A DNA stretch of 49,107 nucleotides, from positions 1 through 49,107 of the forward strand of contig CAIQNH010000018.1 in NCBI GenBank assembly GCA_903873135.1. The letters run 5' to 3'. This DNA is from an uncultured Actinomycetes bacterium. GTDB taxonomy: Bacteria > Actinomycetota > Acidimicrobiia > Acidimicrobiales > Microtrichaceae. Shown here one piece after another: positions 9,504 to 37,642 of this stretch (within the stretch, counting starts at the first letter, position 1; each line of letters begins with the position of its first letter). The notes beneath the pieces are model-generated. The model was not told the origin of the DNA and did no database searches. It saw only the letters and a program-made list of their open reading frames with translations. The translations under genes and the position numbers were made by a program.

Positions 9504-12500
9504 TCAGGCCGGTCGGATGCGGACCGTCGCGATCTGGAACGGGCGCAGCCGGAACCGGACCCCGTCGTCGCCCCGGGTGAGGTCCGGACGCCGCACCCGG
9601 GTGTCCGTCGACTCGTGGGCGTCGGTGGCCACGATCTCGCCGGCGGCGAAGCCCGGTCGCAGCGTGACGTCGGACTGCCCGCCCCTCGACTCGTACAGAC
9701 GGACGACCACGTCGCCCGAACCGTCGTCGGCGAGCTTCACCGCCTCGACGACGACGCCCTCGCCGTCGACCTCGACGACCGGTGCCGCCGACGCCGCGAG
9801 CGTGCCCTCGGTGACGAACCGGACCGGCAGGTTGAGGCGGTACCCCTCCGCTGCGACCCCGGCGCGGTCCGGGTCACCGTCGTGGGGCAGCAGCGACCAC
9901 GTGCAGCGGTGCCGGCCCTGGTCCTGGCGCGGGTCGGGGTAGCGGGAGCCGCGGAGGAGGGTGAGGAACAGCGTCGTGCACGACTCACCGCCGGCGGTGC
10001 GCCGCCGTTCGGCGTGGTGGCCGTAGCGGCCGTCGTTCAGCAGGGCCAGTCCGGCGCCGTGCTCGGAGACGTCCACCCACCGGTGGGCGCACACCTCGAA
10101 CCGGGCGGCGTCCCAGCTGGTGTTGGTGTGGATGGGGGTGGTGGTCCGTCCGAACTGGATCTCGCGCGTCATCTCGGTGGTGTGGATGTCCAGCGGGAAG
10201 GCCACCTGCAGCAGCTGCTCCTGCTCGTGCCAGTCGAACTCGGCGTGCACGTCGAGACGGGGGGACCCGGCGCGCAGCTCGACGGTCTGGCGGACGGTCG
10301 AGGAACGGAACGACCGCTCGACGACCACCCGGGCGACCAGTGGTCCGGAGTCGGTGAGCTCGACGCTGACCGGTCCCTCGACGGGGGTCACGCGGCGGCG
10401 GTTGAAGTGCTCGATGTCCCAGGCGTCGAAGGCGTTGGGCAGGTCGGGGTGCAGCTGCAGCTCGTTGGCCCGTTCGCCGGGTGCGACGAACTCCCGCCCG
10501 GTGGGCCGGTGCACGAGCGAGCCGATCGTCCCGTCGTGCTCGACGCGCACCTCGAGGTGGGCGTTGCGGAGCACGACGCCCCCGTCGACGGCCTCGGCCT
10601 CGACCGCGTCGCCGAGGTCGACGGCGTCGACAGGTGCCGTGCCGAGCGCGGGTACCGACACGGCGAGGGCCGCCGACCCGTCGGCGAGGGTCTGGGCGCC
10701 GGCTGCGGCCACGGCGGCCACGGCCGGGTCGGTCGGGGCGACGACCGCGACCTCCCTCCGGGCATCAGGAGCGGCGTTGGCCGCCGCCAGTCCGCTGGCG
10801 GCGACGAGCGTGAGCGCCTCGCCGACCAGCGCCTCGAGGCGACCACCCACCTCCGCGTAGGTGGCGGCGGCCTCCCGGTGGACCCAGCCGATCGAGCTGC
10901 CCGGCAGGATGTCGTGGAACTGGTGGAGCAGGACCGTCTTCCAGATGCGGTCCAGCTCGGCAGCGGGGTAGCGGTCCGGGTCGCCGAGGAGCGTCGCGGC
11001 CGTCGACCACCACAGCTCGGCCTCGCGGAGGAGCAGCTCGCTGCGCCGGTTCCCGACCTTGGTGTCGGCCTGCGAGGTGAGCGTGCCCCGGTGCATCTCC
11101 AGGTAGAGCTCGCCGATCCACCGGGGCGCGTCGGGGTACTCCTCGATCGCCGCGTCGAAGAACACCTCCGGGGCCTCGATCTCGAGCCTCGGCACCCACT
11201 CCAGGTCCCGGGTCCGGCGGAAGGTCTCCATCATGTCGGGGCTCGGTCCGCCACCGCCGTCGCCCCAGCCGAAGGGCATGAGGCTCCGCGACGCCCGGCC
11301 GCGCTCGGCGAAGTTGCGCACGGAGAAGAACAGCTCGTGCGGCTCGAACGTGGCGTTGTAGGTCTCGACGGGTGGGAAGTGGGTGAACACGGTCGACCCG
11401 TCGATGCCCTCCCACCAGAACGTCTGGTGCGGGAACCGGTTGGTCTGGTTCCACGAGAGCTTCTGGGTGAGGAACCGGTCGATGCCTGCGTGCGACATGA
11501 TCCCCGGCAGCGACGCCGGGTACCCGAAGACGTCGGGGATCCACGTCTCGGTGCAGCGCACACCGAAGTGCTCCTCGAAGAACCGCTGCCCGTGGGTGAA
11601 CTGACGGAGGAGGGCCTCGCCGCCCGCCAGGTTGGTGTCGGCCTCGACCCACATCCCGCCGACCGGCACCCAGCGACCCTCGGCGACACGGGCCCGGATC
11701 TCCTCGAACAGGTGCGGGTACCCCTCGAGGATCCACTCGTACTGCGCGGCCTGGGAGCAGCAGAACCGGAACTCGGGGAAGTCCTCCATCAGCCGCAGCG
11801 CGTTGGCGAAGGTCCTCGAGCACTTCCGCTGCGTCTCCCGGATCGGCCACAGCCACGCCGTGTCCATGTGGGCGTGTCCGATCGCCGAGACCCGGTGTGC
11901 CGAGGCCGGTGCGGGCCGGGCCAGGACGTCGGCCAGCGCGGCGCGTGCGGCGGGTGCGGTACCCGGGATGTCCTCGAGGTCCGTGGCCTCGATCGCCGCC
12001 TCGAGCGCGGCGAGGACCTCGTACCGAGGCGGCTGCTCCAGGGGCAGCTGCCGCATGATGCTCCGCAGGACGGAGACGTCGTGGACGAGCCCGTGCACCT
12101 CGTCGTCGCGCACGACCAGCCGGGCCGAGGCGAGCGTGTGGATCGGCGTCGTGCCGGCGGTGTCGAGGTCGCTGTTCGGGTCCGGTCGTCCCTCGATGAT
12201 CGAGGGGTTCGACGCCGCCTCGACGAGGAGTTCGACCACCTCGCCACCCACGGCTGCTCGGGCGACGGTGACGTGGTGGGCGGCCGGGTGCACACCGCGC
12301 CAGGGCGTCCAGTCACCGTCGGGCGTCCGGGTCCAGATGAGCGCCTCGGAGGTGAACCCCGGCATGTCGGAGTAGGCCAGGTGGATCTCGGCCTGCACGT
12401 GCTCGCCCGCCCACGCCTCGGGGATCGTGGCGCGCATGCGGAACCACGTGGTGCCCCACGGACGGGCGAAGCCCGACCCCACCGCGAACGGTTCGTAGTC

Positions 12501-12653
12501 GGCGGCGAGCGCCTCGGCGACGGACACGGGCTCGCCGGGCACCTCCCACGCCTCGACGGTGAACGTCAGCGAGTCGGTGAACACCGACTGGCGGATCCGC
12601 TCGTTGAACACCCGGTCGATCCGGGCCTCGGTGATCCTGCGGTCGTCGTGCAC
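9504..12653 (-). CDS. Alpha-mannosidase, glycoside hydrolase family 38
   Basis: This 1049-aa enzyme has no signal peptide and is therefore cytoplasmic. GH38 enzymes are Zn-dependent retaining alpha-mannosidases. The first Zn motif is GHAHMDTAWLWP (His262 and Asp264 as ligands), the nucleophile region is TWIPDVFGYPASLPG (Asp374), and the rest of the catalytic domain (QAAQYEWILE, GGMWVEADTNLAGGEAL, WNQTNRFPHQTFWWEG) is intact. The N-terminal ~250 residues form the beta domain seen in bacterial homologues, and the C-terminal half is the family beta-sandwich. The GTG start has a GGAGG about 12 nt upstream. It follows the dehydrogenase gene by 36 bp in one operon. It would release alpha-mannose from imported oligosaccharide. 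Confidence 0.93.
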   Translation of the reverse strand: MHDDRRITEARIDRVFNERIRQSVFTDSLTFTVEAWEVPGEPVSVAEALAADYEPFAVGSGFARPWGTTWFRMRATIPEAWAGEHVQAEIHLAYSDMPGFTSEALIWTRTPDGDWTPWRGVHPAAHHVTVARAAVGGEVVELLVEAASNPSIIEGRPDPNSDLDTAGTTPIHTLASARLVVRDDEVHGLVHDVSVLRSIMRQLPLEQPPRYEVLAALEAAIEATDLEDIPGTAPAARAALADVLARPAPASAHRVSAIGHAHMDTAWLWPIRETQRKCSRTFANALRLMEDFPEFRFCCSQAAQYEWILEGYPHLFEEIRARVAEGRWVPVGGMWVEADTNLAGGEALLRQFTHGQRFFEEHFGVRCTETWIPDVFGYPASLPGIMSHAGIDRFLTQKLSWNQTNRFPHQTFWWEGIDGSTVFTHFPPVETYNATFEPHELFFSVRNFAERGRASRSLMPFGWGDGGGGPSPDMMETFRRTRDLEWVPRLEIEAPEVFFDAAIEEYPDAPRWIGELYLEMHRGTLTSQADTKVGNRRSELLLREAELWWSTAATLLGDPDRYPAAELDRIWKTVLLHQFHDILPGSSIGWVHREAAATYAEVGGRLEALVGEALTLVAASGLAAANAAPDARREVAVVAPTDPAVAAVAAAGAQTLADGSAALAVSVPALGTAPVDAVDLGDAVEAEAVDGGVVLRNAHLEVRVEHDGTIGSLVHRPTGREFVAPGERANELQLHPDLPNAFDAWDIEHFNRRRVTPVEGPVSVELTDSGPLVARVVVERSFRSSTVRQTVELRAGSPRLDVHAEFDWHEQEQLLQVAFPLDIHTTEMTREIQFGRTTTPIHTNTSWDAARFEVCAHRWVDVSEHGAGLALLNDGRYGHHAERRRTAGGESCTTLFLTLLRGSRYPDPRQDQGRHRCTWSLLPHDGDPDRAGVAAEGYRLNLPVRFVTEGTLAASAAPVVEVDGEGVVVEAVKLADDGSGDVVVRLYESRGGQSDVTLRPGFAAGEIVATDAHESTDTRVRRPDLTRGDDGVRFRLRPFQIATVRIRPA

Positions 12654-12689
12654 CTGGGTCGATCCTCCGTCTCGGGCTGTCGGCGGGTG

Positions 12690-13703
12690 TCAGTCCACCA
12701 CGCGGAGCGCCGCGCGAGCGGCGTCGAGCTGCTCCCGGCCGACCTGCAGGCCGTTCGCAACGGAGTACCACAGGCCCTGCTCCTCCACGAAGGACGGGAG
12801 TCTGACGAGGGCTGCCTCGACCTCGGACCACGCGACGCCCAGCTCGTCGAGGTCGGTGCGTGTGCCGGCGGCGTCCGCGATGCGGCGCGGCCGGGCCGGA
12901 TCGTTGCCCTGCAGGGTGGACATCACCAGGACGCCGAGCGTGACCAGCTCGCCGTGCATGATCGTCCGGCCGGTGACGTGCTCGAACGCGTAGGCCCAGA
13001 AGTGCTCCGAGCCCTCCTCGAATCGGGCGTGACCGAGCTCGTGGCACAGCCAGCCGATGTCCCGGTGGCACTCCATGAGCATCTGCACGCCTCGGTCGTC
13101 GCCCGTGGCCAGCAGGGGTGCGAGCACCTCGAGGTCGTCGAGGTACTCCCGGGCCCGCGCCGCGGCGGTCTCGTCCCACGGGGCGTCACGACCGGCCGCC
13201 GCACCGAGTGCCCAGTCGTGGAGTCCGGTGTGACAGGACAGGACGTCGCCGATGCCGCCGGCGACCAGGGCCCGGGGGGCCGACCAGATCAGGTCGAAGT
13301 CGACGATCACCACCTCGGGCACCGAGTCGCCCTCGTAGCGCACGCCGCCGGCGTCGCGCAGGGCGGTCATGCGGGTGAAGCAGGCGTCCACCGAGGGCAG
13401 CGACGGGACCTGGATCAGCGTCCGGCCCGTGCGGTGGTGGAGCCACTTGGCCGTGTCCATCGCGGAGCCGCCGCCGATGCCGACGAGTGCGGCGCCGTCG
13501 GGCAGGTCGGCGACGAGGCCGTCGAGGTGGGCGGGTCGCAGGTCGCCGGACCAGAGGAGCTGTGCCGGCTCGGTGGGCAGGGTCGCCGCGAGGCGCTCCC
13601 ACGGCTCCGGCTGCGTGATCGCCACCCACGGGCCCAGATCGGCGAGCCGGTCCGCGAGCTGGCCCCGCCCGTAGTCGACGTCGAATCCTCGGGCGGTGAT
13701 CAC
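12690..13703 (-). CDS. Glycerol-1-phosphate dehydrogenase-like (Fe-ADH superfamily) enzyme
   Basis: This 337-aa protein belongs to the iron-type alcohol dehydrogenase/glycerol dehydrogenase superfamily, closest in text to the sn-glycerol-1-phosphate dehydrogenase (EgsA/AraM) branch. Visible are the NAD-binding GIGGGSAMDTAKW, the substrate segment QVPSLPSVDACFT, the metal Asp in GGIGDVLS, and His residues in CHELGHARFEEGSEHFWAY and HGELVTLG. The GTG at 13703 is preferred to an upstream in-frame GTG at 13754 because GGGAGG lies 10 nt before it. Its place beside an alpha-mannosidase suggests oxidation of a sugar or polyol phosphate from the same substrate; this is inference. Ether-lipid synthesis is the alternative role. 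Confidence 0.75.
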   Translation of the reverse strand: MITARGFDVDYGRGQLADRLADLGPWVAITQPEPWERLAATLPTEPAQLLWSGDLRPAHLDGLVADLPDGAALVGIGGGSAMDTAKWLHHRTGRTLIQVPSLPSVDACFTRMTALRDAGGVRYEGDSVPEVVIVDFDLIWSAPRALVAGGIGDVLSCHTGLHDWALGAAAGRDAPWDETAAARAREYLDDLEVLAPLLATGDDRGVQMLMECHRDIGWLCHELGHARFEEGSEHFWAYAFEHVTGRTIMHGELVTLGVLVMSTLQGNDPARPRRIADAAGTRTDLDELGVAWSEVEAALVRLPSFVEEQGLWYSVANGLQVGREQLDAARAALRVVD

Positions 13704-13783
13704 GCTCGTCCGTCCTCCCTGCCGGTCGTCCGATCGGGACGAGCCGGCCGTCACGCCCCGGTGGATCTGCCCACCGGCCGTCG

Positions 13784-13812: not shown

Positions 13813-13874
13813 GGTGGTGTGCACCGTCCGGCGATGCGGTCGGGGCACGGGCAACCGAGGGTGCCGGGAGGCAG

Positions 13875-13895: not shown

Positions 13896-13921
13896 GACGC
13901 AGTCGACGGGGGGAGTGCGTG

Positions 13922-16006
13922 ATGGCGAGGTCGTTCGGTCGTGGAGGTCGACGTCCGGTGGGCGTGGCGCTGCTGGTGGCGGTGGCGCTCGTCGGGATGG
14001 TGACGGCAGCGTGCGTCTCGACCGCACCGCCGCCGGTCGGTGCGCCGACGTCGCCGACCGTGGAGGGTCTGACCTTCATCCCGGCGACCCGCGCCTCCCA
14101 GTACGTCGAGCAGGCGCCCTACAACGACGACGGTGGTCTCCTGCTCGTGCGGATCGACAACCCGAACGCCACCCCGGACCGGGTGGAGCAGGTGTTCGTC
14201 AACGGGACGCCGGTCGAGTCGATGCCCGGCCTGAAGTGGTGGCGGGTGTGGCCGCCCGAGCTCGGCCCGGCCGGCTCCGACACCTCCTCGGCGGTGGTGA
14301 CGATCAAGGGCATCAGCGCTCCGCTCCGTGGCGGTGAGCAGGTGACCGTGGCGGTGCAGACGGAGCAAGGTGTCGGGGTCTCCCGCTCGGCCCGCCTCCG
14401 GGGGCCCGTCCTGAAGGTCGGTTCGATCGTGGCGAGCGCGGACCGCAGCGAGCTGGTGGTGTTCGTCCGCAACCAGTCGCAGGTCACCTACACCGTCGAC
14501 CACCTGGCGGTGAACGACGACGTGCGGATCCCCGTGACCGATCCGTCGGTCTCCACGCCCGACGGCGACTGGACGGTGGAGCCGGGCCGGGTGCTCATCG
14601 CCCGGATCCAGCTCGACGCCCCGGCTCCGGTGATGGCCCCGATCGCGCTGCAGGTCGGTGCGACCGGACCCTCGGCGCAGCGGGAGTGGGTCCTCGGCGC
14701 CCTCCGGCTCATCGAGCCCGAGTTCGACCTGGGCACCTGGCACAGCGAGCTGCCCGAACGCGGCGCCGACGCCAAGCGCGCCACCAAGGAGGTGCCGGTC
14801 GACCAGATCGTCGGTGGCGCCCAGTCCCGGTACCGGGAGCTGTGGGACCGCTGGCGGATCCAGACCAACGCCCAGCGGTTCGCGGACCCGGCGACCGTCG
14901 CCGCCCAGCAGGGCAACCCCGGCATCCGGTCGTGGCTGCTGAGCGACGAGCCCGACCTCGGCGACGAGCCCGAGGACACCTCGGCCGCCGTCGCCGCCCG
15001 GGTGGACGAGTACCGCCAGCTCGACCCGACCCACCCGATGTGGGTGAACTTCGCCATGCAGCGCAAGTTCAACGAGTACGGCCAGGTCCCCGACATCACC
15101 GGCCACGACCACTACGTGGTGTGCGCGCCGAACGCGATCGCCGGCTCCAACTGGGCCCGGCTGGCCGAGATGCCGGAGGCGCTCGACTACACCGACGTCC
15201 TCAAGGACAACACCGAGCCGCTCCCCATGTGGATCTGGCCGCAGCTCGCCGCCAGCTCGGCGTGGAACTGCCAACCCGACGCCTGGGCGGTGAGCACCCA
15301 GTTCTGGCTCTCGGTGATGGGTGGCGCCGACGGCTTCAACTGGTTCGTCTGGAACAGCGACTACCTCGGCGACCCGAAGTACGCCGCCGCCATGGCCCAG
15401 GCGCCCCGTGACGTGCAGGTGGTCCGGCAGGTGCGCGACGTGCTCACCTACGGCGAGGTCGAGCGGTCGTCCACGTCGTCGACGCCGTACATCGAGACCC
15501 GGACGATCGTGGGCGAGGAGCGTCAGGTCGTCGTGGCCTGCAACCTCAAGTACACCGTCGACGGGCCGCCGTGGTTCCCGACCTACCGGAACTACCCGGT
15601 CGACGGCAGCGTGACGGTGGACGTGCCCGACTGGGTGTCGACCTCCACGGTCCGTCGGGTGACCCCGACGGGCACCGAGTCGGTCGCGGCGACGGTCTCC
15701 GGACAGAGCGTCACCCTGCCCGTCTCGCTCGACGAGGAGTGCGCCGTGTTCACGATCGGATCGCCCGACACGGTGGCGCCCGTGGCGCCCACCGGTCTGA
15801 CCCGGGCCGAGTCGGACACGCTCGCGTGGGTCGAGGGTCGTGACGACGTCGGCGTCGTCGGCTACCGCGTCTACCTCGACGGTGTCGAGGTGGCCAGCAC
15901 GCCCACCGCCGTCTACCGGTCGCCCGCCGTGGTGGCCGGCTCGTGGACCGTGGCGGCGGTCGACTCGGCCGGCAACGTCGGACCACCGAGCGCTCCGGTC
16001 GCCTGA
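13922..16006 (+). CDS. Secreted lipoprotein, glycoside-hydrolase-like barrel with C-terminal Fn3-like domain
   Basis: This product of about 694 aa has a signal peptide ending in a lipobox (VTAAC, Cys31). An N-terminal beta-rich region (about residues 45-280) precedes a segment that reads like a TIM-barrel glycosidase: SWLLSDEPDLGDEPED, THPMWVNFA, DITGHDHYVV, PLPMWIWPQL and GFNWFVWNSDYLGDP. The Glu of SDEPD is a candidate catalytic acid, but I cannot assign a GH family. The last ~80 residues resemble a fibronectin type III domain (APTGLTRAESDTLAWVEGRD). The ATG at 13922 lies 6 nt after GGAG; GTG at 13919 is possible. As the only surface glycosidase-like protein here, it may trim or bind the polymer outside the cell. 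Confidence 0.75.
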   Translation: MARSFGRGGRRPVGVALLVAVALVGMVTAACVSTAPPPVGAPTSPTVEGLTFIPATRASQYVEQAPYNDDGGLLLVRIDNPNATPDRVEQVFVNGTPVESMPGLKWWRVWPPELGPAGSDTSSAVVTIKGISAPLRGGEQVTVAVQTEQGVGVSRSARLRGPVLKVGSIVASADRSELVVFVRNQSQVTYTVDHLAVNDDVRIPVTDPSVSTPDGDWTVEPGRVLIARIQLDAPAPVMAPIALQVGATGPSAQREWVLGALRLIEPEFDLGTWHSELPERGADAKRATKEVPVDQIVGGAQSRYRELWDRWRIQTNAQRFADPATVAAQQGNPGIRSWLLSDEPDLGDEPEDTSAAVAARVDEYRQLDPTHPMWVNFAMQRKFNEYGQVPDITGHDHYVVCAPNAIAGSNWARLAEMPEALDYTDVLKDNTEPLPMWIWPQLAASSAWNCQPDAWAVSTQFWLSVMGGADGFNWFVWNSDYLGDPKYAAAMAQAPRDVQVVRQVRDVLTYGEVERSSTSSTPYIETRTIVGEERQVVVACNLKYTVDGPPWFPTYRNYPVDGSVTVDVPDWVSTSTVRRVTPTGTESVAATVSGQSVTLPVSLDEECAVFTIGSPDTVAPVAPTGLTRAESDTLAWVEGRDDVGVVGYRVYLDGVEVASTPTAVYRSPAVVAGSWTVAAVDSAGNVGPPSAPVA

Positions 16007-16046: not shown

Positions 16047-16799
16047 TCAGGAGAGGTCGCCCGCAGCGTCCCGGTCGAGCACGACCGTGACCCGCGGGTG
16101 AAGTCGGAGCGAGGACGCCGGGCACGCCGTGTCCAACGGTCCCTCCAGCGCGGCCGCGACCGCCGGAGCCTTGGCGGCCCCGGTCGCCGCGAGCAGCAGG
16201 TGCCGGGCGCGTCCGATGGTGGCGAGCCCCTGCGTGACGGCGTGGGTCGGGACCAGGTCGGGCGACGCGAAGAACCGGGCGTTGTCGGACCGGGTCGTGG
16301 CGCTGAGCTCGACCACGTGGGTCGTCCACTCGAACGGCGTCCCCGGCTCGTTGAAGCCCAGGTGTCCGTTCCGGCCGATCCCGAGCAGCTGGAGGTCCAC
16401 GCCGCTGCCGAGCAGCGACTCGTAGTCCGCGCAGGAGGCCTCGAGGTCCCCCGTCGTCACGGGCGCGTGCACCCGTTCCGCCGGCACCCCGATCGCGTCG
16501 GTCAGCTCGCGGCGGATCGTGGCCCGGTACGACGCCGGGTCGCCCGTGGGGAGCCCGACGTACTCGTCGAGCAGGAAGGCGGTCACGTCGACGAACAGGT
16601 CGGTGGTGGCGAGCTCGTGGACGAGCAGTCGGTAGGCGGGTGAGGGGGTGGCTCCCGTGGCCAGCCCCAGCCGGCACGAGGGGTCGACCTCGACGGCGGC
16701 CCGGATCGTCCGGGCCACGACCACGGCGGCCTGCTCGGCGTCGCCGGCGACCACGACGCGCGGACCCGACCCCCCGGGCGGGACGGCCGGGTCCGTCAC
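16047..16799 (-). CDS. nagB: Glucosamine-6-phosphate deaminase NagB
   Basis: NagB converts glucosamine-6-phosphate to fructose-6-phosphate and ammonia, the exit from amino-sugar catabolism into glycolysis. The 250-aa protein has the usual size and motifs: LGLATGATPSPAY, FLLDEYVGLP with the catalytic Asp/Glu pair, and LLGIGRNGHLGFNEPG with the active-site His and Glu. It is the last gene of the leftward operon, 3 bp after the alpha/beta-hydrolase gene, with a GTG start. Its presence argues that the imported glycan yields GlcN-6-P, fitting with the PIG-L deacetylase and the BadF-type kinase. Confidence 0.95.
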   Translation of the reverse strand: MTDPAVPPGGSGPRVVVAGDAEQAAVVVARTIRAAVEVDPSCRLGLATGATPSPAYRLLVHELATTDLFVDVTAFLLDEYVGLPTGDPASYRATIRRELTDAIGVPAERVHAPVTTGDLEASCADYESLLGSGVDLQLLGIGRNGHLGFNEPGTPFEWTTHVVELSATTRSDNARFFASPDLVPTHAVTQGLATIGRARHLLLAATGAAKAPAVAAALEGPLDTACPASSLRLHPRVTVVLDRDAAGDLS

Positions 16800-21002: not shown

Positions 21003-21058
21003 GTGCCCCTCCGATCCCCACCTGACTCCGGGACCCGGAACCGACCCGGGCCGTGCGT

Positions 21059-21073
21059 GTAAGCAACGCTTAC
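21059..21073. promoter_or_regulatory. Probable ROK repressor operator in divergent promoter region
   Basis: GTAAGC-AAC-GCTTAC is a perfect 6+6 bp palindrome with a 3-bp centre, in the 86-bp gap between the divergent operons starting at 21002 (-) and 21089 (+). It ends 3 bp before the rightward -10 box and its AT content stands out from the surroundings. Its position would let the adjacent ROK repressor block both promoters. Confidence 0.72.
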
Positions 21074-21075
21074 TC

Positions 21076-21081
21076 TAGACT
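21076..21081 (+). promoter_or_regulatory. -10 box for the rightward glycan operon
   Basis: TAGACT lies 7 nt before the GTG start at 21089, with no Shine-Dalgarno sequence, so the ROK gene is probably translated from a leaderless mRNA. The palindrome at 21059-21073 fills the spacer just upstream. TACTCT at 21071 is an alternative -10. Confidence 0.5.
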
Positions 21082-21088
21082 CCCGGCG

Positions 21089-26887: not shown

Positions 26888-26895
26888 GCGCCGCC

Positions 26896-29394: not shown

Positions 29395-31562
29395 CCGGGT
29401 TCGTCGAGCCGGACGGCTGGGAGCTGTCGAGCTCGCCCGAGGGCCCCTGGCAGCCGGCGTCCGTCCCCGGCAACTGGTACCTCGACGGCGTCGACGGGCC
29501 GGAGACGGTCTGGTACCGCACACGCGTCGAGGTCCCCGCCGACTGGGGTGACGGACCGGTCGAGGTGCAGGTCGGTGCGGCCGACTACCGGGCGACGGTG
29601 CTCTGGGACGGCGTCGAGGTCGGCTCGCACACGGGCGGGTTCGCCCCGTTCACGGTCGGGGCACCCGGCGGGGTCGGGACCCACGAGCTGGTGGTCAGGG
29701 TCGAGTGCCCGACCGACGAGTTCGGCACGGTCTGGCCCCACTCCAAGACCACGTTGCGCGGCGTCATGGGGCACCACGACGCCCGGCCCGGGAGCTGGTC
29801 CGAGCGCGGCCAGGAGCGCTCCACCGGCGGCATCTGGGGATCCGTGACGGTCCGTCCCCGTCCCGAGTTCGCGCTGCGGGCGCTCCGGTTGTCCACGGAG
29901 GTCCGCGGCGCCGACGCCGACCTGCGGCTCGTCGCCGTGGTCGACCACCACGGGAGCGAACCCTCGTGGGTCCGCCTCCGGGTGTCGCTGGTCGAGGACG
30001 GTGGCGAGGGTGCCGCCCGCCACCACCTCTGGGCCGACACCTTCGTGGACCCCGGTCGCCAGGAGGTCGAGCTCACCGGAACGCTGGCCGCACCCCGGCT
30101 GTGGTGGACCTGGGACCAGGGCGAGCCGCACCTCCACCTGGCGCGGACCGAGCTCGTGGTCGTCGACGGCGGCCCGTCCGCCGACGCCTCGACCGGTCGG
30201 GTCGTCGTCGCCGACGAGCGACTCGTCGGCGTGCGCACCCTCGAGGTCGGTGCCGACTGGGTGTGGCGGCTCAACGGCCGTCCCGTGTTCGTGCGCGGCG
30301 TGAACTACATCGGCGAGCAGTGGCTCTCGGCGCTGGACGCCGACCGGGCGGCGGGCGACGTCGCCCTGGCCGTGGGCGCGAACCTCAACACGGTGCGGGT
30401 CCACGCCCACGTGAGCGTGCCCGCGTTCTACGACGCGTGCGACGCCGCCGGGGTGCTGGTCTGGCAGGACCTCCCCATGCAGTGGGGCTACGCCGACACC
30501 GCCGAGACCTACCGGGTGGCCCGGGCGATGGTGTCCGAGGTCGTCGACCTGCACGGGTGGCGGCCGTCGGTCGCCTACTGGTGCGCGCACAACGAGTCGC
30601 CGTGGAACGAGCCGTGGATGGCCGACGAGGCCGGCCGGTTCGTCCCGGACCAGAACCAGCGGCTCGACCACGAGCTCGCCGGCCTGTTCCGTCGGCTCGA
30701 CCCGTCGCGTCCGGTGATCGCCAACTCCGGTGCCGGTGACGGCCACACCTACCCCGGTTGGTACTGGGGGAGCTGGCGGGTCGCCTCGGAGATCCCCGGC
30801 GGTGCCTTCGTCACGGAGTACGGCGCCCAGGCCGTCCCGGACCTCGAGACCCTGCGGACGTGGCTGCCCGAGCACCCGACCCTCGAGGACTGGTCGTTCC
30901 ACGGCTTCCAGCACCACGAGGTCGGTCGTCACGTCGGGGTGAACGTCTTCGCCAACACCGTGGAGGAGATCGTCGAGGCCACCCAGCGCTACCAGGCCCG
31001 CCTGCTGCAGTTCGCCACCGAGCACTACCGGCGGCGCAAGCGTGAGCGGGTGCAGGGTGTGATCCCGTTCATGCTCGTCGACCCGTGGCCGTGCGTGAGC
31101 TGGTCGGTCGTGGACCACCTCCGCCGGCCGAAGCTCGGCTACGACGCGCTCGCCCGGGCCATGCAGCCGGTCCTCCCGAGCATCGAGGCGGCGAGCGACG
31201 CCTACCCGGGTGACGACCCGTTCGACCCGGACCCGTGCGTGTTCGGCGTCTGGTGGGTCAACGACCGGCACGAGTCCTACCCCGGGGCCTCGCTCGGGTG
31301 GCGGCTCGTCACCGCCGGTGGGCGCGAGCTCGACCGGGCCGAGCGCCGGGTCGACGTGTTCGCCGACGGCGCACGCCGGGTGCTGCAGGCGGGACCGTTC
31401 GAGCTGGCACCCGGGGCCTACGCGCTCGAGAGCTGGCTGATCGACGCCGACGGACGACCGCTCGGCGAGAACCGCTGGGACTTCTCGGTGAACGCCGCCC
31501 CCGACTGGCCGGCCGAGGTCGCCGGGGACGTCGCCACCGAGCAGGAGGAGGTCGGTTCGTGA
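29391..31562 (+). CDS. Glycoside hydrolase family 2 enzyme (beta-mannosidase/beta-galactosidase type)
   Basis: This 723-aa GH2 protein has the canonical order: sugar-binding beta-sandwich (residues 1-155, with PGNWYLDGVDGPETVWYRT), Ig-like domain (to about 265) and TIM barrel. The acid/base is in YWCAHNESPW (Glu402) and the nucleophile in AFVTEYGAQAVP (Glu476). The run RGVNYIGEQWL and NTVRVHAHV mark the barrel start. Sequence alone does not separate beta-mannosidase, beta-glucuronidase and beta-galactosidase; the text leans to beta-mannosidase-like. It has no signal peptide, so it acts after import. GTG overlaps the GH35 gene by 4 bp. Confidence 0.87.
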   Translation: MTGFVEPDGWELSSSPEGPWQPASVPGNWYLDGVDGPETVWYRTRVEVPADWGDGPVEVQVGAADYRATVLWDGVEVGSHTGGFAPFTVGAPGGVGTHELVVRVECPTDEFGTVWPHSKTTLRGVMGHHDARPGSWSERGQERSTGGIWGSVTVRPRPEFALRALRLSTEVRGADADLRLVAVVDHHGSEPSWVRLRVSLVEDGGEGAARHHLWADTFVDPGRQEVELTGTLAAPRLWWTWDQGEPHLHLARTELVVVDGGPSADASTGRVVVADERLVGVRTLEVGADWVWRLNGRPVFVRGVNYIGEQWLSALDADRAAGDVALAVGANLNTVRVHAHVSVPAFYDACDAAGVLVWQDLPMQWGYADTAETYRVARAMVSEVVDLHGWRPSVAYWCAHNESPWNEPWMADEAGRFVPDQNQRLDHELAGLFRRLDPSRPVIANSGAGDGHTYPGWYWGSWRVASEIPGGAFVTEYGAQAVPDLETLRTWLPEHPTLEDWSFHGFQHHEVGRHVGVNVFANTVEEIVEATQRYQARLLQFATEHYRRRKRERVQGVIPFMLVDPWPCVSWSVVDHLRRPKLGYDALARAMQPVLPSIEAASDAYPGDDPFDPDPCVFGVWWVNDRHESYPGASLGWRLVTAGGRELDRAERRVDVFADGARRVLQAGPFELAPGAYALESWLIDADGRPLGENRWDFSVNAAPDWPAEVAGDVATEQEEVGS

Positions 31563-32548
31563 GCACCCGGATCGCAGTCCTGGGGTACGGCTTCATCGCC
31601 GACCTCCACACCCGGGCGGCGCAGGCTGCCGGGGCCACGGTCGTCTCGGTGACCGGACACCGCCCGGAGTCCGCCGCGGCGTTCGCCGAGCGGCACGGGA
31701 TCGGGCGCTCCGGCTCCGACTGGACCGAGGCGGTCGCAGCCGCCGACGTCGACGCCGTCGTGGTGGGCACGCCGAACTCGCTGCACCACCCGCAGACGAT
31801 GGCGGCCGTCGCCGCGGGCAAGCACGTCCTGGTGGACAAGCCGATGGCGCTCGACACCGCGCAGGCCACGGAGATGCGCGACGCGGCGGCGGCAGCGGGC
31901 GTCACGCTCTGCGTCGGCCACATGTGGCGCTACCGGGACGAGGTGACCCGGTTGCGGGACCGGATCGCCGCAGGCGAGCTGGGTCGGGTGGTGCGGACCC
32001 GCGGCTACGGGATCCACGCCGGGTGGGGTCCATCCGGTTGGTTCCGGGACCCGGCGCTGGCCGGGGGAGGGGCCCTGATCGACATGGGCATCCACGCGAT
32101 CGACACGGTCCGGTACCTGCTCGGGGACCCGACCGCCACGCGGGTCGTGGCGTCGATCGGCACCGGTTTCGACGACCCGGCAGGTGCGACGGCCGACCCG
32201 CGCATCGACACCGACGGCGTGGTCCTCGTCGACTGGTCCGACGGCGTCCGCAGCGTGGTGGAGTCGGGCTGGTGGCAGCCGGTGCTCGAGGGCGTCGAGG
32301 CCGAGACCGAGGTCTACGCCACCGCCGGACACGCTCGGATCTGGCCGGCGTTCACGGCGGCCTCACCGCCACCGGCGGACTACGAGCACTGCGCGCTGCC
32401 CATGTACGCCGCCCAGATGGCCGACTTCCTGGAGTGCGCCGCGACCGGGGCGCAGCCCCGTGCCTCGGCGGAGGTCGGTCTCGAGGCGTTGCGCATCGTC
32501 GAGGCGGCGTACCGGTCCGCCGCCGAGGTCCCCGGGAGGTCGTCGTGA
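31559..32548 (+). CDS. Gfo/Idh/MocA family oxidoreductase
   Basis: This 329-aa NAD(P)-dependent sugar or cyclitol dehydrogenase has Rossmann motif IAVLGYGFIADLHTRAA, the DKPMA motif that holds the catalytic Lys, and GGGALIDMGIHAID with the active-site Asp/His. Members oxidise inositols, glucose derivatives and UDP-sugars, and also make 3-keto glycosides. Here it may oxidise a released sugar to a keto sugar that the aminotransferase or GH4 enzyme uses; that is inference. GTG overlaps the GH2 gene by 4 bp. Confidence 0.9.
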   Translation: MSTRIAVLGYGFIADLHTRAAQAAGATVVSVTGHRPESAAAFAERHGIGRSGSDWTEAVAAADVDAVVVGTPNSLHHPQTMAAVAAGKHVLVDKPMALDTAQATEMRDAAAAAGVTLCVGHMWRYRDEVTRLRDRIAAGELGRVVRTRGYGIHAGWGPSGWFRDPALAGGGALIDMGIHAIDTVRYLLGDPTATRVVASIGTGFDDPAGATADPRIDTDGVVLVDWSDGVRSVVESGWWQPVLEGVEAETEVYATAGHARIWPAFTAASPPPADYEHCALPMYAAQMADFLECAATGAQPRASAEVGLEALRIVEAAYRSAAEVPGRSS

Positions 32549-33825
32549 AGGTCGCCGTGGTCGGTGGAGGGTCCACCTACACCCCCGAACTGGTCGACGG
32601 ACTGCTCCGACGCCGCGAGGAGCTCGACCTCTCCGAGCTGGTCCTGGTCGACGTGGACGCGTCCCGCCTGGCCGTCCTGGGTCCGCTCGCCGCCCGGATG
32701 GCCGAGCGTCAGGCGCCCGGGGTGCGGGTGTCGTGGGGGCTCGACGTGGCCGAGGGGGTGCGCGACGCCCGCTACGTCGTCAGCCAGATCCGCGTCGGAG
32801 GCATGGAGGCCCGGGAGCGGGACGAACAGCTCGGTCGTGAGTTCGGTCTCGTCGGCCAGGAGACCGTGGGCGTGGGTGGGTTCGCCAACGCGCTGCGCAC
32901 CATCCCGGTGGCGCTGCGCATCTCGGAGATCATCGACGACGAGGCGCCGGACGCCACCCTGTTCAACTTCACCAACCCGGCGGGGCTGGTGACCGAGGCG
33001 CTGTGCCGGCACGGTCACGTGCCGACCGTCGGGTTGTGCAACGTGCCGTGGTCGACCAAGGCCGAGATCGCGGCGGCCTTCGGGGCGGCCCCCGAGGACG
33101 TGGACCTGGACACGGTCGGCCTGAACCACCTCACGTGGACCCGACGGGTGGTCGTGGCCGGGGAGGACCGGACCGAGGAGGTGCTCACGGCGCTCCGCGG
33201 GCTCGTCGGCAAGCAGCTGTCCTCCGACGGTGAGCCCGACTGGACGCGCGACACCATCGGCCTGATCGACGCGATCCCGAACTACTACCTCCTCTACTAC
33301 TACGAGACCGAGGCGTGGCTCCGGTACCAGGCCACCCACCCGACCCGGGCGGCCGAGGTGATGGCGATCGAGTCACGACTGCTCGAGCAGTACGCCGACC
33401 CGGAGCTCGACGAGAAGCCGCCCGAGCTCGCTCAGCGCGGTGGCGCCTACTACTCCGAGGCGGCTGCGGCGCTCATGGCCGACATGGCGAGCGACGCCGG
33501 CACCGTCCACGTGGTGAACCTCGAGAACCGCGGGGCCATCCCCGGGTTGCCCGACGACGTCGTGGTGGAGACCGCTGCGGTCGTCACCTCGAACGGACCG
33601 GTCGCCCGCCCCACCGAGCCACTCCGGCCCGACGTGGACGCGCTCGTCCGGACGGTCAAGGACGTGGAGCTGCTCACGGTGCAGGCGGCGGCCGAGGGCG
33701 ACGAGGAGGCCGCCCGCCTGGCGCTGCTCACCCACCCGCTCGGCCCATCCGCCCACCAGGTCGACGCCGTGTGGTCACGTCTGCGTGAGGTCAACGCCGG
33801 GCTCCTCGGGAGGCTCGATGCCTGA
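32545..33825 (+). CDS. Glycoside hydrolase family 4, 6-phospho-beta-glycosidase type
   Basis: GH4 enzymes cleave glycosides by an NAD+ and Mn2+ dependent redox-elimination mechanism. The 426-aa protein begins with the NAD site VAVVGGGSTYTPELVDGLL, and shows NFTNPAGLVTEAL, VGLCNVPWS with metal ligand Cys165 and GLNHLTWTRR with metal ligand His195. The N-terminal text is of the 6-phospho-beta-glucosidase (CelF/LicH) type. No PTS gene is present, so the phosphorylated substrate would have to be made by the kinase encoded next door. GTG overlaps the oxidoreductase gene by 4 bp. Confidence 0.92.
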   Translation: MKVAVVGGGSTYTPELVDGLLRRREELDLSELVLVDVDASRLAVLGPLAARMAERQAPGVRVSWGLDVAEGVRDARYVVSQIRVGGMEARERDEQLGREFGLVGQETVGVGGFANALRTIPVALRISEIIDDEAPDATLFNFTNPAGLVTEALCRHGHVPTVGLCNVPWSTKAEIAAAFGAAPEDVDLDTVGLNHLTWTRRVVVAGEDRTEEVLTALRGLVGKQLSSDGEPDWTRDTIGLIDAIPNYYLLYYYETEAWLRYQATHPTRAAEVMAIESRLLEQYADPELDEKPPELAQRGGAYYSEAAAALMADMASDAGTVHVVNLENRGAIPGLPDDVVVETAAVVTSNGPVARPTEPLRPDVDALVRTVKDVELLTVQAAAEGDEEAARLALLTHPLGPSAHQVDAVWSRLREVNAGLLGRLDA

Positions 33826-34792
33826 GGCCCCGGTCGTCGTCGGCGTCGACGGCGGCGGCACGAAGACCGACCTGCTCGTCGTCGACGCGCAGGGGGCCGT
33901 CGTCGGCCGGGCCTCGGGCGGTGGTGCCAACTGGGAGGGGGTCGGCACCGACGCCGTGGGGGAGGTGCTCGGCGGACTGCTCGACGAGGCGCTCGGTGCG
34001 TCCGGTCGGAGCCGCGACGACGTGGCGGCGTGGGTGTGCTGCCTGGCCGGGGTCGACTGGCCGTCGGACCCGCACCGACTCGCCCCGGCCCTCGACGGAC
34101 TCGGGGTCGGTGGCGAGCGTGTCGTGCTCAACGACTCCTTCGCCGCGCTGCGTGCCGGTACCTCCGGACCCGTCGGCTGCGTCTCGATCGCCGGGACCGG
34201 CGGGGTCTGTGCCGGCCGGAACGCCCGTGGGGAGGTGGCGCGCACCATGGGGGTGGGCATCGGTGAGGGGTCGGGAGCGTGGACGCTCGTCAGCGGGGCC
34301 CTGGGCGCCGTGGCCGAGGCCCACCACCACAGCGGCCCGCCCACGGCGCTGAGCGAGCGGTTCACCGCGCAGGCCGGCGTCGACGGCGTCGAGGCGTTCT
34401 TCGAGGGGGTGACGCGCGGGACGGTCCCGGTCGGGGCCGACCTGGCCCCGCTGGTGCTCGAGGTGGCCGCCGCCGGCGACGACGTGGCCCGGGCCGTGGC
34501 CAGCGACGCCGGCGAGCGGCACGGCCGCGACCTGGCGGGCCTCGCCGACCGACTCGACATGTGCGACGAGCCGGTCGAGGTGGTGCTCGCGGGCGGTGTC
34601 CACGTCCACGGTGCCGGTCCGTTCCGCGACTCGTTCTGCGACGCGGTCCGCAGCCGGGTACCGGCTGCCGAGTTCGTGGTGCTCGCCACCGCTCCGGTGG
34701 TGGGTGCGGCCCTGCTGGCGCTCGAGCTCGCCGGGTGGCCGGCGGAGTCCGTCCGCGCCGCGCTGGTCGAGGCAGTGACGGGAGCGGCGTGA
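33818..34792 (+). CDS. BadF/BadG-type sugar kinase (GlcNAc kinase-like)
   Basis: This 324-aa ASKHA-fold ATPase of the BadF/BadG/BcrA/BcrD family has phosphate-1 motif GVDGGGTKTDLLVVD, SIAGTGGVCAGRN (phosphate-2) and VVLAGGVHVHGAG (adenosine motif). This family includes N-acetylglucosamine kinase. The ATG at 33818 lies 4 nt after GGGAGG and overlaps the GH4 gene by 8 bp; an in-frame start at 33785 is rejected because it is inside GH4. It probably phosphorylates GlcN(Ac) or a disaccharide at O6, supplying NagB and GH4. Confidence 0.87.
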   Translation: MPEAPVVVGVDGGGTKTDLLVVDAQGAVVGRASGGGANWEGVGTDAVGEVLGGLLDEALGASGRSRDDVAAWVCCLAGVDWPSDPHRLAPALDGLGVGGERVVLNDSFAALRAGTSGPVGCVSIAGTGGVCAGRNARGEVARTMGVGIGEGSGAWTLVSGALGAVAEAHHHSGPPTALSERFTAQAGVDGVEAFFEGVTRGTVPVGADLAPLVLEVAAAGDDVARAVASDAGERHGRDLAGLADRLDMCDEPVEVVLAGGVHVHGAGPFRDSFCDAVRSRVPAAEFVVLATAPVVGAALLALELAGWPAESVRAALVEAVTGAA

Positions 34793-36498
34793 GGTCGCCC
34801 TGCCCGCCACCCCGTTGGGACAGCCTCGTCGACGATGGCGAGCCACCCGACCTGCCCGACCACGAGGAGGCCTACCGGATCGACGTGGGTCCGGGCGGGG
34901 TCGAGGTCCGGGCAGCGACCGAGGTGGCCCGCTACCGAGCGGCCACGACCGTGGCCCAGCTCGAGCGGCTCGGGGAGCTCGGCGCGGGGCGCACGATCGT
35001 GGACTGGCCGGAGTTCGACTGGCGCGGCGTGACGCTGGACGTCTCCCGCGGTCGGGTGCCGACCGTCGCCGAGCTCGAGCTCACCCTCGAGCGGTTGGCC
35101 GGGCTCAAGGTCAACCACGTCGAGTTGTACCTCGAGGCGACCTTCGCCCACCCGGGCCACGCCGCCGTGTGCGAGCCGCACGGCGCGTACCGCGCCGACG
35201 AGGTGGAGCGGTTGGTCGCGCACGCCCGGACGCACCACGTGGAGCTGATCGGACTGCAGGCCTCGTTGGGACACCTCGAGCACTTCCTGGCGCACCCCGA
35301 ACACGCGCACCTCGCCGCGCTGCCCGGCGGCTACGTGACACCCGACGGCTCGGGCCACGAGCCGCCTGCGTGCCTCGATCCGAGGAGCGACGAGGCCTTC
35401 GCGCTGGCCGCCGAGCTGGTGACCGACGTGGCCGAGGCCTTCGACCAGCCCCGGGTGCACGTCGGTCTGGACGAGCCGATCGACCTGAACCCTGCGGTCT
35501 GGGACGCCATCTTCGACGTGCCCGGCGCTCCGGTGCCGTGGGCCGACGTCGACGGCGGCGCGTTCTGCATCCCGCTGCCCCCGGACCGGGTGGCCGACTA
35601 CGCCGCGTGGGTGCGTCGGCTGCGGTCGCTGCCCGCGCTGCGCGACCGCGAGGTGCTCATGTGGGCCGACGTGGTGGCCGCCCAGCCCGAGCTGCTCGAC
35701 CTGCTGCCCGAGGGGGTCACGCTGGTCGAGTGGGGCTACGAGGCGGACCACCCCTTCGACGCCCGGGTCGGCCGCATCCGTGCCGCCGGGCGACCGTGCT
35801 GGGTGGCCGCCGGGACGTCCGGGTGGTCGTCGATCTCCGGGCGCCTCACCAACGTGGAGGGCAACGTGCGCGCCGCCGTGGACGCCGCCCGTCGTCACGG
35901 GGCCACCGGGGTGCTCGTCACCAGCTGGGAGGTGCTGCCGTCGGTGTCGGACTGGCCCGGGTTCGTCCTGGGGGCCGCCACCGCGTGGAACCCGGACCGG
36001 CCGGTCGAACTGGCCGCCTCGCTCGACCTGACCGTCGCCGGCGGCGAGGGTCTGGGTGCGGTGTGGGTCCGGCTCGGCCGGGTCCACGACCACGTCGTGC
36101 CCGGCACCCCCGAGACGGGTGCGGTCTCGGAGCTGTTCCGCAGCGGCGGGATGGCGGTGGTCGGTCTGGTGCTCCGCGGCATGGAGGCCGGGGTGCTCGA
36201 CGCCGTGGTGGCCGACCTCGACCTCGCGGCCGCCGACCTGGCCCGGGCGACCACCGACGCGCCCGACGGCGAGGTGCTCCGCGCCGAGCTGTGGTGGGTC
36301 CACGACGCGCTCCGCTGGGGTGTGGCCGCAGCGCGACACTGCCTCGACTGGGACGAGCCGATCGGCGGCCGCGAGTGGCTGGCCGCCGAGCACGACCGGC
36401 TCGTCGTCGAGCACGAGCGGCTCTGGCGCTGCCGGAACCGTCAGGATGGGTACGACCGTGTGGCGTCGGCACTGGCCGCCACCAGGGGAGGGTTCTGA
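34789..36498 (+). CDS. Glycoside hydrolase family 20-like beta-N-acetylhexosaminidase
   Basis: This 569-aa protein has a short N-terminal GH20b-like domain (to about residue 75), then a barrel beginning WRGVTLDVSRGRVPTVAEL and NHVELYLEATFA. The catalytic Asp-Glu pair characteristic of GH20 is in RVHVGLDEP (Asp228, Glu229). Substrate-assisted hydrolysis of terminal beta-GlcNAc or GalNAc is expected. It lacks a signal peptide. The C-terminal ~130 residues are alpha-helical and unassigned. GTG overlaps the kinase gene by 4 bp. Confidence 0.83.
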   Translation: MRSPCPPPRWDSLVDDGEPPDLPDHEEAYRIDVGPGGVEVRAATEVARYRAATTVAQLERLGELGAGRTIVDWPEFDWRGVTLDVSRGRVPTVAELELTLERLAGLKVNHVELYLEATFAHPGHAAVCEPHGAYRADEVERLVAHARTHHVELIGLQASLGHLEHFLAHPEHAHLAALPGGYVTPDGSGHEPPACLDPRSDEAFALAAELVTDVAEAFDQPRVHVGLDEPIDLNPAVWDAIFDVPGAPVPWADVDGGAFCIPLPPDRVADYAAWVRRLRSLPALRDREVLMWADVVAAQPELLDLLPEGVTLVEWGYEADHPFDARVGRIRAAGRPCWVAAGTSGWSSISGRLTNVEGNVRAAVDAARRHGATGVLVTSWEVLPSVSDWPGFVLGAATAWNPDRPVELAASLDLTVAGGEGLGAVWVRLGRVHDHVVPGTPETGAVSELFRSGGMAVVGLVLRGMEAGVLDAVVADLDLAAADLARATTDAPDGEVLRAELWWVHDALRWGVAAARHCLDWDEPIGGREWLAAEHDRLVVEHERLWRCRNRQDGYDRVASALAATRGGF

Positions 36499-36499
36499 G

Positions 36500-37642
36500 G
36501 TGGCATCGATCACGCTCGACCACGTGAGCAAGGTGTTCGACAAGCAGGTGACGGCGGTCGACGACGTCTCGCTCGAGATCGGCGACGGTGAGTTCCTCGT
36601 GCTCGTCGGACCGTCGGGGTGCGGCAAGTCGACCCTGCTCCGCATGATCGCCGGCCTCGAGGAGACCACCTCGGGTGGCGTGTACCTGGGGGAGCGTGAC
36701 ATCACCTGGGTGCCGCCCCGGGAGCGCAACCTGGCCATGGTGTTCCAGAACTACGCGCTCTACCCCCACATGACGGTGCGTCGGAACCTGGCGTTCAGTC
36801 TCAAGCTGCGTCGTCGCCCGAAGGCGGAGATCGCCGCGCAGGTGGACCGGGTGGCGGGCATGCTGGGGCTCGAGGAGCTGCTCGACCGCAAGCCGGGTCA
36901 GCTCTCCGGAGGTCAGCGCCAGCGGGTGGCCATGGGCCGTGCGCTCGTGCGTGACCCCGAGGCGTTCCTGATGGACGAGCCGCTGTCGAACCTCGACGCC
37001 AAGCTGCGGGTCACCATGCGGGCCGAGCTGGCCGAGCTGCACCAGCGGACGGGGACGACGACCGTCTACGTCACGCACGACCAGATCGAGGCCATGACGC
37101 TGGGCCACCGGGTCGCGGTCCTGCGGGGTGGCGTGCTGCAGCAGTGCGCCTCACCGACGGAGTTGTTCCACCGTCCCGTCAACCTGTTCTGCGCCACGTT
37201 CATCGGCTCGCCCGAGATGAACCTGGTCGACGCCACCCTCGAGGGCGACCTGGTCCGCTTCGCCGGTGTCGAGCTCCCCGTGTCGGGGCGACCCGAGGGT
37301 CCGGCGGCCTCGTGGACGCTGGGGGTCCGCCCGTCGGACCTGGTGCTGGCCTCCACGGCACCCGGGCTCCCGACGATCGAGGCCCGGATCGACCACGTCG
37401 AGCACCTCGGCGCCCAGGTGCAGGTGTCGTTCGCGCTGGATGCGCCGCAGGTGCGACTCGAGGCCGACTCGGAGGACGAGGAGCTGGAGCAGGCCGCGGT
37501 GCGGTCCGACCGGGCCCGCTGGACCGCCGAGCTGCCCGACGGCTCGGGGGTCTCGGTGGGCGACGTCGTCACGCTCGGTGTGGTCACCGAGCGGCTCCAC
37601 TGGTTCGACCCCGACTCCGGCGAGCGCGCCGCCGGCACCTGA
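36500..37642 (+). CDS. ABC sugar importer ATPase (UgpC/MsmK/MalK type)
   Basis: This 380-aa ATPase has Walker A GPSGCGKST, Q-loop VFQNYALYPHMTV, signature QLSGGQRQRV, Walker B AFLMDEP and H-loop VYVTHDQIEAMT, then the C-terminal TOBE-type regulatory domain (about residues 235-380) of MalK-like proteins. It energises the binding protein and permeases encoded 9.6 kb upstream in the same operon. GTG at 36500 begins 1 bp after the GH20 stop. Having its own ATPase suggests the importer does not depend on a shared MsiK-type subunit. Confidence 0.95.
   Translation: MASITLDHVSKVFDKQVTAVDDVSLEIGDGEFLVLVGPSGCGKSTLLRMIAGLEETTSGGVYLGERDITWVPPRERNLAMVFQNYALYPHMTVRRNLAFSLKLRRRPKAEIAAQVDRVAGMLGLEELLDRKPGQLSGGQRQRVAMGRALVRDPEAFLMDEPLSNLDAKLRVTMRAELAELHQRTGTTTVYVTHDQIEAMTLGHRVAVLRGGVLQQCASPTELFHRPVNLFCATFIGSPEMNLVDATLEGDLVRFAGVELPVSGRPEGPAASWTLGVRPSDLVLASTAPGLPTIEARIDHVEHLGAQVQVSFALDAPQVRLEADSEDEELEQAAVRSDRARWTAELPDGSGVSVGDVVTLGVVTERLHWFDPDSGERAAGT

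Follow-up and report, generated by a model that had tools for sequence, protein, structure and literature searches.

The window, a stretch of 49,107 bp from a lake-dwelling actinobacterium (contig CAIQNH010000018.1), carries between positions 9504 and 37642 a real, conserved and probably co-regulated locus for the catabolism of a predicted amino-sugar oligosaccharide. The best explanation of the locus, given a probability of about 0.5, is import of the oligosaccharide, cleavage in the cytosol and deacetylate-first glucosamine (GlcN) catabolism, joined to a DegT aminotransferase and a Gfo/Idh/MocA oxidoreductase (hereafter Gfo) that would work as a 3-amino-sugar pair in reverse. This DegT/Gfo module is the new element of the locus. 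A more specific proposal is made tentatively: an undescribed and widespread catabolism of 3-amino or 2,3-diamino sugars in Actinomycetota, in which PIG-L or CE4 and a ceramidase-fold protein would deamidate the sugar, DegT and Gfo would exchange the amine at C3 for a hydroxyl, and GH4 and the GlcN-6-phosphate route would follow. No description of this gene set was recognised in the open-licence PubMed Central literature, and its absence from print is unproven.

Genes were called from an open reading frame (ORF) listing, codon composition, a start-site listing and Pfam and NCBIfam scans (Table 1). Twelve genes on the plus strand (21089-37642), with overlaps or gaps of 0-8 bp at the chosen starts, face a leftward unit encoding a ceramidase-like protein, PIG-L, an exported protein and NagB. 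Farther out is GH38. This arrangement, described in a first-pass annotation, was confirmed by the scans, and the genes listed there stood. The iron-dependent alcohol dehydrogenase (iron-ADH)-like gene, a 695-aa lipoprotein-like gene, the DegT/Gfo pair as a unit and the wider distribution had been missed. The reading of the two units as one functional locus with a common promoter region was supported, as was, at the level of interpretation, import followed by dismantling inside the cell; by-eye reading of the N-termini agreed that the glycosidases lack signal peptides. For the protein annotated as an exported alpha/beta-hydrolase, export was backed by a lipobox-like stretch at the N-terminus, and the hydrolase fold was not (no Pfam match at E ≤ 1).

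In the proposed scheme, the ROK repressor would control the locus and the ATP-binding cassette (ABC) transporter would import an N-acetylated amino-sugar oligosaccharide, the glycosidic bonds of which would be cut in the cytosol by GH20, GH35, GH2 and GH4. PIG-L would strip acetyl (or other acyl) groups ahead of phosphorylation, and the ceramidase-fold protein would probably take off a further N-acyl group. The BadF kinase would phosphorylate GlcN or a disaccharide, the latter option fitting a 6-phospho-type GH4, and NagB would convert GlcN-6-phosphate to fructose-6-phosphate and ammonia. DegT and Gfo would act opposite in direction to the RifL/RifK and NtdC/NtdA 3-amino-sugar pairs: DegT would turn an amine on the ring into a ketone by transamination and Gfo would reduce the ketone to a hydroxyl, removing a second amine beyond the reach of NagB. 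The product, with its free C3 hydroxyl, would thereby meet the need of GH4 chemistry. Two amidases and two amine-removing steps fit a doubly aminated substrate, which is only suggestive. The scheme is built on the genes present, their conserved linkage, the candidate operators they share, the exchange of deacetylase and deaminase families and the catalytic motifs that are kept; from these we infer the substrate, the reaction order, and the direction in which, and the carbon at which, DegT and Gfo would act.

GH35 was rare, with matches in 4/296 class genomes and 4/396 phylum genomes sampled (E ≤ 1e-20; both counts include the window's own genome). A scan of named-genome contigs with GH35 gave 13 loci, four of which had been met already in the sampled genomes (L025 = G289, L028 = G227, L030 = G188 and L031 = G500). 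The first-pass annotation had named scattering of the genes in relatives as the observation that would count against a single locus; the neighbouring genes were kept in 9 of the 13 contigs, and the claim was not refuted. Eight (L023-L030) kept the window's order over their visible extent, L030 without GH2, and L031 was rearranged, with the importer, GH35 and Gfo kept and GH4, DegT and ROK moved. Around GH35 in L032-L035 (Anaerolineales, Paenibacillus/Cohnella), the neighbouring genes were not conserved. Given the linkage in relatives, the locus is not a chance cluster. L026 and L029 (best GH35 segments 64% and 68%) hold the iron-ADH, NagB, PIG-L and ceramidase-like block together with DegT, binding protein, permeases, GH35, GH2, Gfo, GH4, BadF, GH20 and MalK; no ROK gene was found in either stretch, and the genes of L029 have many frame breaks. 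The public record of L026 is labelled as a Bifidobacterium breve metagenome-assembled genome, yet its locus matches the Acidimicrobiia set and the label looks wrong.

The outer genes varied more in their distribution. Iron-ADH was also present in L013, L014, L026, L029 and L030, and at 42% in L069. The 695-aa gene was present in G227 and G289 and in 1/148 sampled class genomes, namely its own; it was absent beside iron-ADH in L026 and L029, and most other stretches end before that point. The exported protein was kept in close relatives, with a mere scrap in L029. No PIG-L, NagB or ceramidase-like gene was seen in L030, a 15-kb contig of G188.

Beyond the GH35-bearing version, a search of the phylum with DegT returned matches in 19/296 genomes (E ≤ 1e-80), and the 18 other than the window's own were viewed as 19 stretches. 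Twelve genomes from two families (10 of f62, 2 of f68) carry, whole or in part, a reduced version made up of ROK, importer, DegT, GH4, MalK and, mostly, Gfo and BadF. With the second contigs of G383 and G509 included, the genes beside DegT were ROK in 12/12, GH4 and MalK in 11/12 each, and BadF and Gfo in 9/12 each; the three stretches lacking Gfo (G412, G509, G330) stop at contig edges, and the G500 stretch is likewise cut by a contig end. A SIS deaminase-like protein was found in 8/12 and a CE4 deacetylase in 7/12. Best models for these proteins in L063, all below cut-off, were GlmS, NagB-II and GlmD for SIS, and PdaB, PdaA and NodB for CE4. G316 combines DegT and Gfo with PIG-L (58%), SIS and an iron-ADH (42%), and has no GH4 or BadF in its stretch. 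These patterns suggest that SIS and CE4 stand in for NagB and PIG-L in the wider version. As the families of deaminase and deacetylase swap and both functions stay in most carriers, this is the best evidence that both steps are real.

In the other six DegT genomes (G486, G311, G478, G520, G482, G502), DegT lies in different settings, adjoining a different importer in G311 and G478. In G486 (L058:6431-10742), a DegT 67% identical to that of the window lies beside an AAC(3)-like acetyltransferase and a flavin adenine dinucleotide oxidoreductase; an AAC(3)-like gene is also near DegT in a Natrononativus plasmid (L078). L075 (G502) has a DegT interrupted by a single in-frame stop, with NagB-like (39%) and ceramidase-like (30%) genes in the same 20 kb. 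By annotation, the Natrononativus plasmid groups PIG-L, DegT, a class III aminotransferase and a ceramidase-like gene, of which PIG-L and the ceramidase-like gene were not recovered by searches with the window proteins. Also by annotation, Devosia groups a GlcN-6-phosphate deaminase, SIS, an amidohydrolase, a ceramidase-like gene, an ABC importer and Gfo, Nitratireductor has a Devosia-like set without Gfo, and a Chloroflexota plasmid has a similar GH4 (6-phospho-beta-glucosidase) and an 'ATPase' near DegT. Ceramidase-like genes of Haladaptatus and Teredinibacter, by contrast, sit in other settings. When plasmids were searched, neither the window PIG-L (E ≤ 1e-15) nor its Gfo (E ≤ 1e-35) gave a match.

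The two versions of the locus carry different palindromes. The 86-bp gap between the divergent units contains GTAAGCAACGCTTAC, with small changes in four relatives. Searched genome-wide (≤1 mismatch), GTAAGCNNNGCTTAC occurred at a single place per genome in G000 (the window's genome), G227, G289 and G188, always at this locus, and in G188 between ROK and DegT. Backwards controls gave 0, 5, 0 and 10 places, respectively; since they were non-zero in G227 and G188, the weight of the site rests on its recurrence at the same place in all four genomes. The palindrome was absent from L026 and L029, and a promoter and terminator scan of 20900-21200 found none. In the wider version, TAGGAAASTTTCCTA (≤2 mismatches) was found in 11/12 stretches, all but L069, with two copies in 9 and a single copy in 2; one site is at the ROK promoter and the other beside GH4. 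It was not found in seven other stretches including the window, and shuffles gave 0-0.05 per stretch. Its exact core AGGAAASTTTCCT had 19 genome-wide places, spread over 9/12 genomes; G316, G335 and G308 had none, and the backwards controls were zero. Eighteen of these places were at the locus, two of them on the second contig bearing its other part (G383, G509), and both halves of the locus thus carry the same palindrome. The remaining place (L104:8473, G330) is upstream of an exported GH9-CE4 fusion (L104:5769-8420), which may be a secreted enzyme feeding the regulon in G330. GH9-CE4 homologues occur in G302, G335 and G383 (4/16 genomes with G330); G302 and G383 have no exact copy of the palindrome away from the locus, and G335 has no exact copy anywhere, so this is a one-genome lead. 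The palindromes suggest one regulon per lineage and are candidate operators that ROK may bind.

The catalytic motifs of the deacetylase and deaminase are kept; motif counts here and below include some genomes twice (L012/L013 = L028, L014 = L025, L015 = L030, L016 = L020 = L031, L071 = L107). PDB matches of PIG-L were 3wl4 (E 6.8e-12, listed as uncharacterised, which we take to be a Pyrococcus Dac), LnmX 5bmo (7.2e-12), PH0499 and 8bgn (6.1e-10), the named Dac of P. chitonophagus, and thus include diacetylchitobiose deacetylases. Among nine PIG-L matches from 7 genomes, the metal motif HADD was kept in 9/9 and NxDH in 8/9, the miss being in frame-broken L029. The NagB motifs DEY and GHxGFNEP were kept in the window and in 3/3 relatives. 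The structure model of the ceramidase-like protein (mean predicted local distance difference test, pLDDT, 61) matched 2zws by Foldseek (E 1.4e-15, probability 1.0). As the model is only moderate, the fold assignment rests on it together with a separate sequence-profile match (E 3.2e-8); the Pfam Ceramidase_alk gathering score was missed (11 bits vs a cut-off of 32.1). Presumed Zn-ligand-like motifs were kept (HTH.GP 7/8; CHPE, PGE and GY..P 8/8). The neutral-ceramidase fold points to an amidase as the likely role of this protein. BadF resembles kinases of N-acetylglucosamine (GlcNAc) and N-acetylmuramic acid; one f62 member beside Gfo (L064:2850-3782) has a degenerate phosphate-binding motif and is perhaps a sensor rather than a kinase. 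A motif count for BadF was set aside, as many of its aligned pieces start beyond the motif.

A ROK regulator and NagB are shared with the familiar NagC/NagA/NagB pathway of GlcNAc use, from which the locus differs in its ABC import and in having PIG-L or CE4 instead of NagA, for which no match was found in the window locus. NagA was over cut-off in 3/13 carriers (G188, G308, G335), elsewhere in the genome, the latter two being the f68 genomes. On another contig of the window's genome (L083, G000:C134), a PIG-L paralogue and a protein of the galactokinase family lie within 6541-12596 near a stretch resembling NagA (8718-9401, below cut-off), possibly as a second amino-sugar set.

Among the glycosidases, GH4 is closest in PDB to proteins named 6-phospho-beta-glucosidase and shares metal residues and motifs with that clade, the activity of which is predicted for it. 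The metal Cys and His were present in 15/15 aligned sequences, RxGG in 14/15 and RGG(A/V)xYS in 13/15, the two lacking the last motif being the second GH4s of L063 and L066. Both 6-phospho GH4s studied in PMC10628242 are described there as requiring the 6-phosphate, with cleavage proceeding via C3 oxidation; a kinase without a phosphotransferase system (PTS) would thus be a sensible partner. Known kinase and GH4 disaccharide routes likewise have a related GH4 near a sugar kinase, whereas the window has BadF in place of BglK or a PTS and ties it to removal of amino groups. The GH20 motif G(L/M)DE was kept in 7/7 matches.

The alternative that comes nearest, though unlikely, is a deacetylate-first chitobiose route like that of Thermococcus and Pyrococcus, with PIG-L as Dac, GH35 as GlmA, BadF as GlcN kinase and NagB as deaminase, and with DegT and Gfo in side functions. 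Archaeal enzymes of this route are among the best PDB matches of both GH35 and PIG-L, the PIG-L (CE14) Zn motif is Dac-related, the L063 SIS weakly matches GlmD and NagB-II, and deacetylation would precede deamination in both systems; Dac and GlmA are described as acting in concert (PMC3575233, PMC9779004). Against it, the GlcN-binding Asp178 of GlmA, reported in PMC6566704 as essential (D178N inactive), corresponds to Asn195, invariant in 5/5 aligned GH35s (position taken from the PDB-match alignment). GH35 was therefore not called an exo-glucosaminidase, and its identification as GlmA was rejected. Unlike the archaeal route, the window has NagB instead of the SIS-type GlmD (SIS occurring in the wider version) and adds DegT, Gfo, GH4, GH20, GH2, ROK and the ceramidase-like protein. 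DegT and Gfo are kept more widely than GH35 and would be jobless in a chitobiose route.

An improbable second alternative is breakdown of an aminocyclitol or of an inositol-linked amino-sugar glycan, the latter already a candidate in the first-pass annotation, with DegT and Gfo converting scyllo-inosamine to inositol. DegT is close in PDB to 2-deoxy-scyllo-inosose aminotransferases, and the top-scoring NCBIfam model of Gfo is inositol 2-dehydrogenase/IolG, far under its cut-off (138 vs 355 bits). IolD was over cut-off in only 2/13 carriers and in none of the five GH35-version genomes (G000, G227, G289, G188, G500), where freed inositol would therefore lack the standard route; the candidate is disfavoured. 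Gfo also matches UDP-GlcNAc-3-, levoglucosan and glycoside-3-dehydrogenase models. All nine models were below cut-off for the window protein, 12/12 tested members match them at E ≤ 0.001, and the motif E/DKP was kept in 22/22 matches.

The best PDB match of DegT is 3-amino-5-hydroxybenzoic acid (AHBA) synthase, and the DegT and Gfo/Idh families are both mostly known from biosynthesis. It is about as improbable as the inositol route that the pair builds an amino sugar destined for a coat or a product and that the catabolic genes merely feed this synthesis. In rifamycin biosynthesis, AHBA synthase and the oxidoreductase RifL are described as yielding UDP-kanosamine, and NtdC/NtdA as performing like chemistry on glucose-6-phosphate (PMC8788734). 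The window pair has the same two kinds of enzyme as these kanosamine pairs and differs from them in lying inside an import-and-hydrolysis locus and in its proposed opposite direction. A homologous pair, DegT directly preceding Gfo, lies in an AHBA-type cluster in L074, the only one of L072-L074 for which AHBA-type gene content (3-dehydroquinate (DHQ) synthase and class II 3-deoxy-D-arabino-heptulosonate 7-phosphate (DAHP) synthase) was shown. In the DegT tree, which has long branches, a partly open backbone and possibly misplaced L059/L060, L072-L074 form their own 100/100 branch apart from the import-locus DegTs, and identification of the window DegT as AHBA synthase was rejected on this separation. 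Identification of Gfo as RifL was also unsupported (33% identity and 88 bits by BLASTP to the AHBA-cluster Gfo, unspecific PDB matches). Against biosynthesis, the pair is linked to the importer, ROK and GH4 in many genomes beside the same palindrome, DegT and Gfo being co-located in the window group as well as in the wider version, and among 40 window translations, a part of the ORFs, none matched a glycosyltransferase, a nucleotidyltransferase, or a DHQ or DAHP synthase (E ≤ 0.001).

Use of an N-glycan or other mannose-rich glycan (GH38, GH2, GH35, GH20), as proposed in the first-pass annotation, is the least probable reading of all, and mannose as part of the core was not supported. Three genomes of the genus have GH38 adjoining the core (the window's own, L013 of G227 and L014 of G289). 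Beside the core of L026 and of L029 it had no match, and the f62/f68 stretches, to which the search was confined rather than extended to whole genomes, did not show it either.

Several observations lower the probability of reversed amine removal within deacetylate-first GlcN catabolism. NagB is missing from G289 (L014, between 15371 and 15473) with its neighbours, the exported protein and the 695-aa gene, kept; PF01182 had one other match in the G289 genome and none in G188 (79% complete). This absence reduced confidence in the explanation, and a different deaminase or the ordinary NagA pathway may operate in some carriers. Neither SIS nor CE4 was seen in the two f68 stretches. The ceramidase-like protein is not general, being found in 2/296 phylum genomes (E ≤ 1e-30). 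GH35 lacks the GlcN-binding Asp, and the best NCBIfam model of GH4, below cut-off, is an alpha-galactosidase. Gfo is distant from the AHBA-cluster Gfo, scores best with IolG and has many other Gfo/Idh enzymes among its PDB matches, and the reaction of DegT might involve a different carbon or ring, or run in the biosynthetic direction. Iron-ADH has no step in the scheme, and the amino-sugar oligosaccharide is a substrate predicted from the gene content.

Table 1. Genes and candidate operator of the locus, in window coordinates.
Feature	Position	Strand	Evidence or remark
GH38 alpha-mannosidase, accessory	9504..12653	-	Pfam GH38N 4.3e-93
Iron-ADH / glycerol-1-phosphate-dehydrogenase-like oxidoreductase	12690..13754	-	
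695-aa lipoprotein-like protein	13919..16006	+	Weak GH42 similarity, E 0.012, below cut-off
NagB-type glucosamine-6-phosphate deaminase	16047..16799	-	Pfam 4.3e-21; NCBIfam subfamily 1.1e-74, below its cut-off
Exported lipoprotein-like protein	16803..18956	-	Hydrolase by eye only
PIG-L (CE14-type) N-deacetylase	18943..19800	-	Pfam 6.8e-21
Neutral-ceramidase-fold protein, probable Zn amidase	19797..21002	-	Foldseek and sequence profile
Candidate ROK operator GTAAGCAACGCTTAC	21059..21073	not assigned	Divergent promoter region
ROK-family repressor	21089..22372	+	Helix-turn-helix and ROK
DegT/DnrJ/EryC1/StrS aminotransferase	22369..23625	+	
ABC solute-binding lipoprotein	23622..25040	+	
ABC permease 1	25041..26057	+	
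ABC permease 2	26054..26887	+	
GH35	26896..29394	+	GlmA-like similarity but Asn195-Glu196
GH2 beta-glycosidase	29391..31562	+	
Gfo/Idh/MocA oxidoreductase	31559..32548	+	
GH4	32545..33825	+	Nearest PDB relatives 6-phospho-beta-glucosidases
BadF-type sugar kinase	33818..34792	+	GlcNAc/MurNAc kinase-like
GH20 beta-N-acetylhexosaminidase-like	34789..36498	+	
MalK/UgpC-type importer ATPase	36500..37642	+	436 bits vs cut-off 432

The 695-aa protein is possibly an exported glycosidase; its structure model was unusable (pLDDT 38). Just after the operon (37675-41307) lies a gene for a large protein that combines FG-GAP repeats with a subtilase domain; it occupies the same place in L012, L024 and L028. 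Cytochrome c maturation genes (CcmF, thioredoxin-like, CcmH, TPR protein) are located at 2444-6706. Rfam at gathering thresholds had no match within the window.

Unusual amino sugars occur in bacterial envelopes and in antibiotics. That DegT and Gfo, enzymes commonly regarded as biosynthetic, belong here to a conserved and apparently co-regulated set for import, glycoside cleavage and GlcN catabolism suggests that bacteria salvage nitrogen and carbon from such sugars by the same chemistry. The neutral-ceramidase-fold protein gains a plausible non-lipid setting, and the locus supplies named enzymes, a candidate operator and a binding protein for finding the natural substrate.

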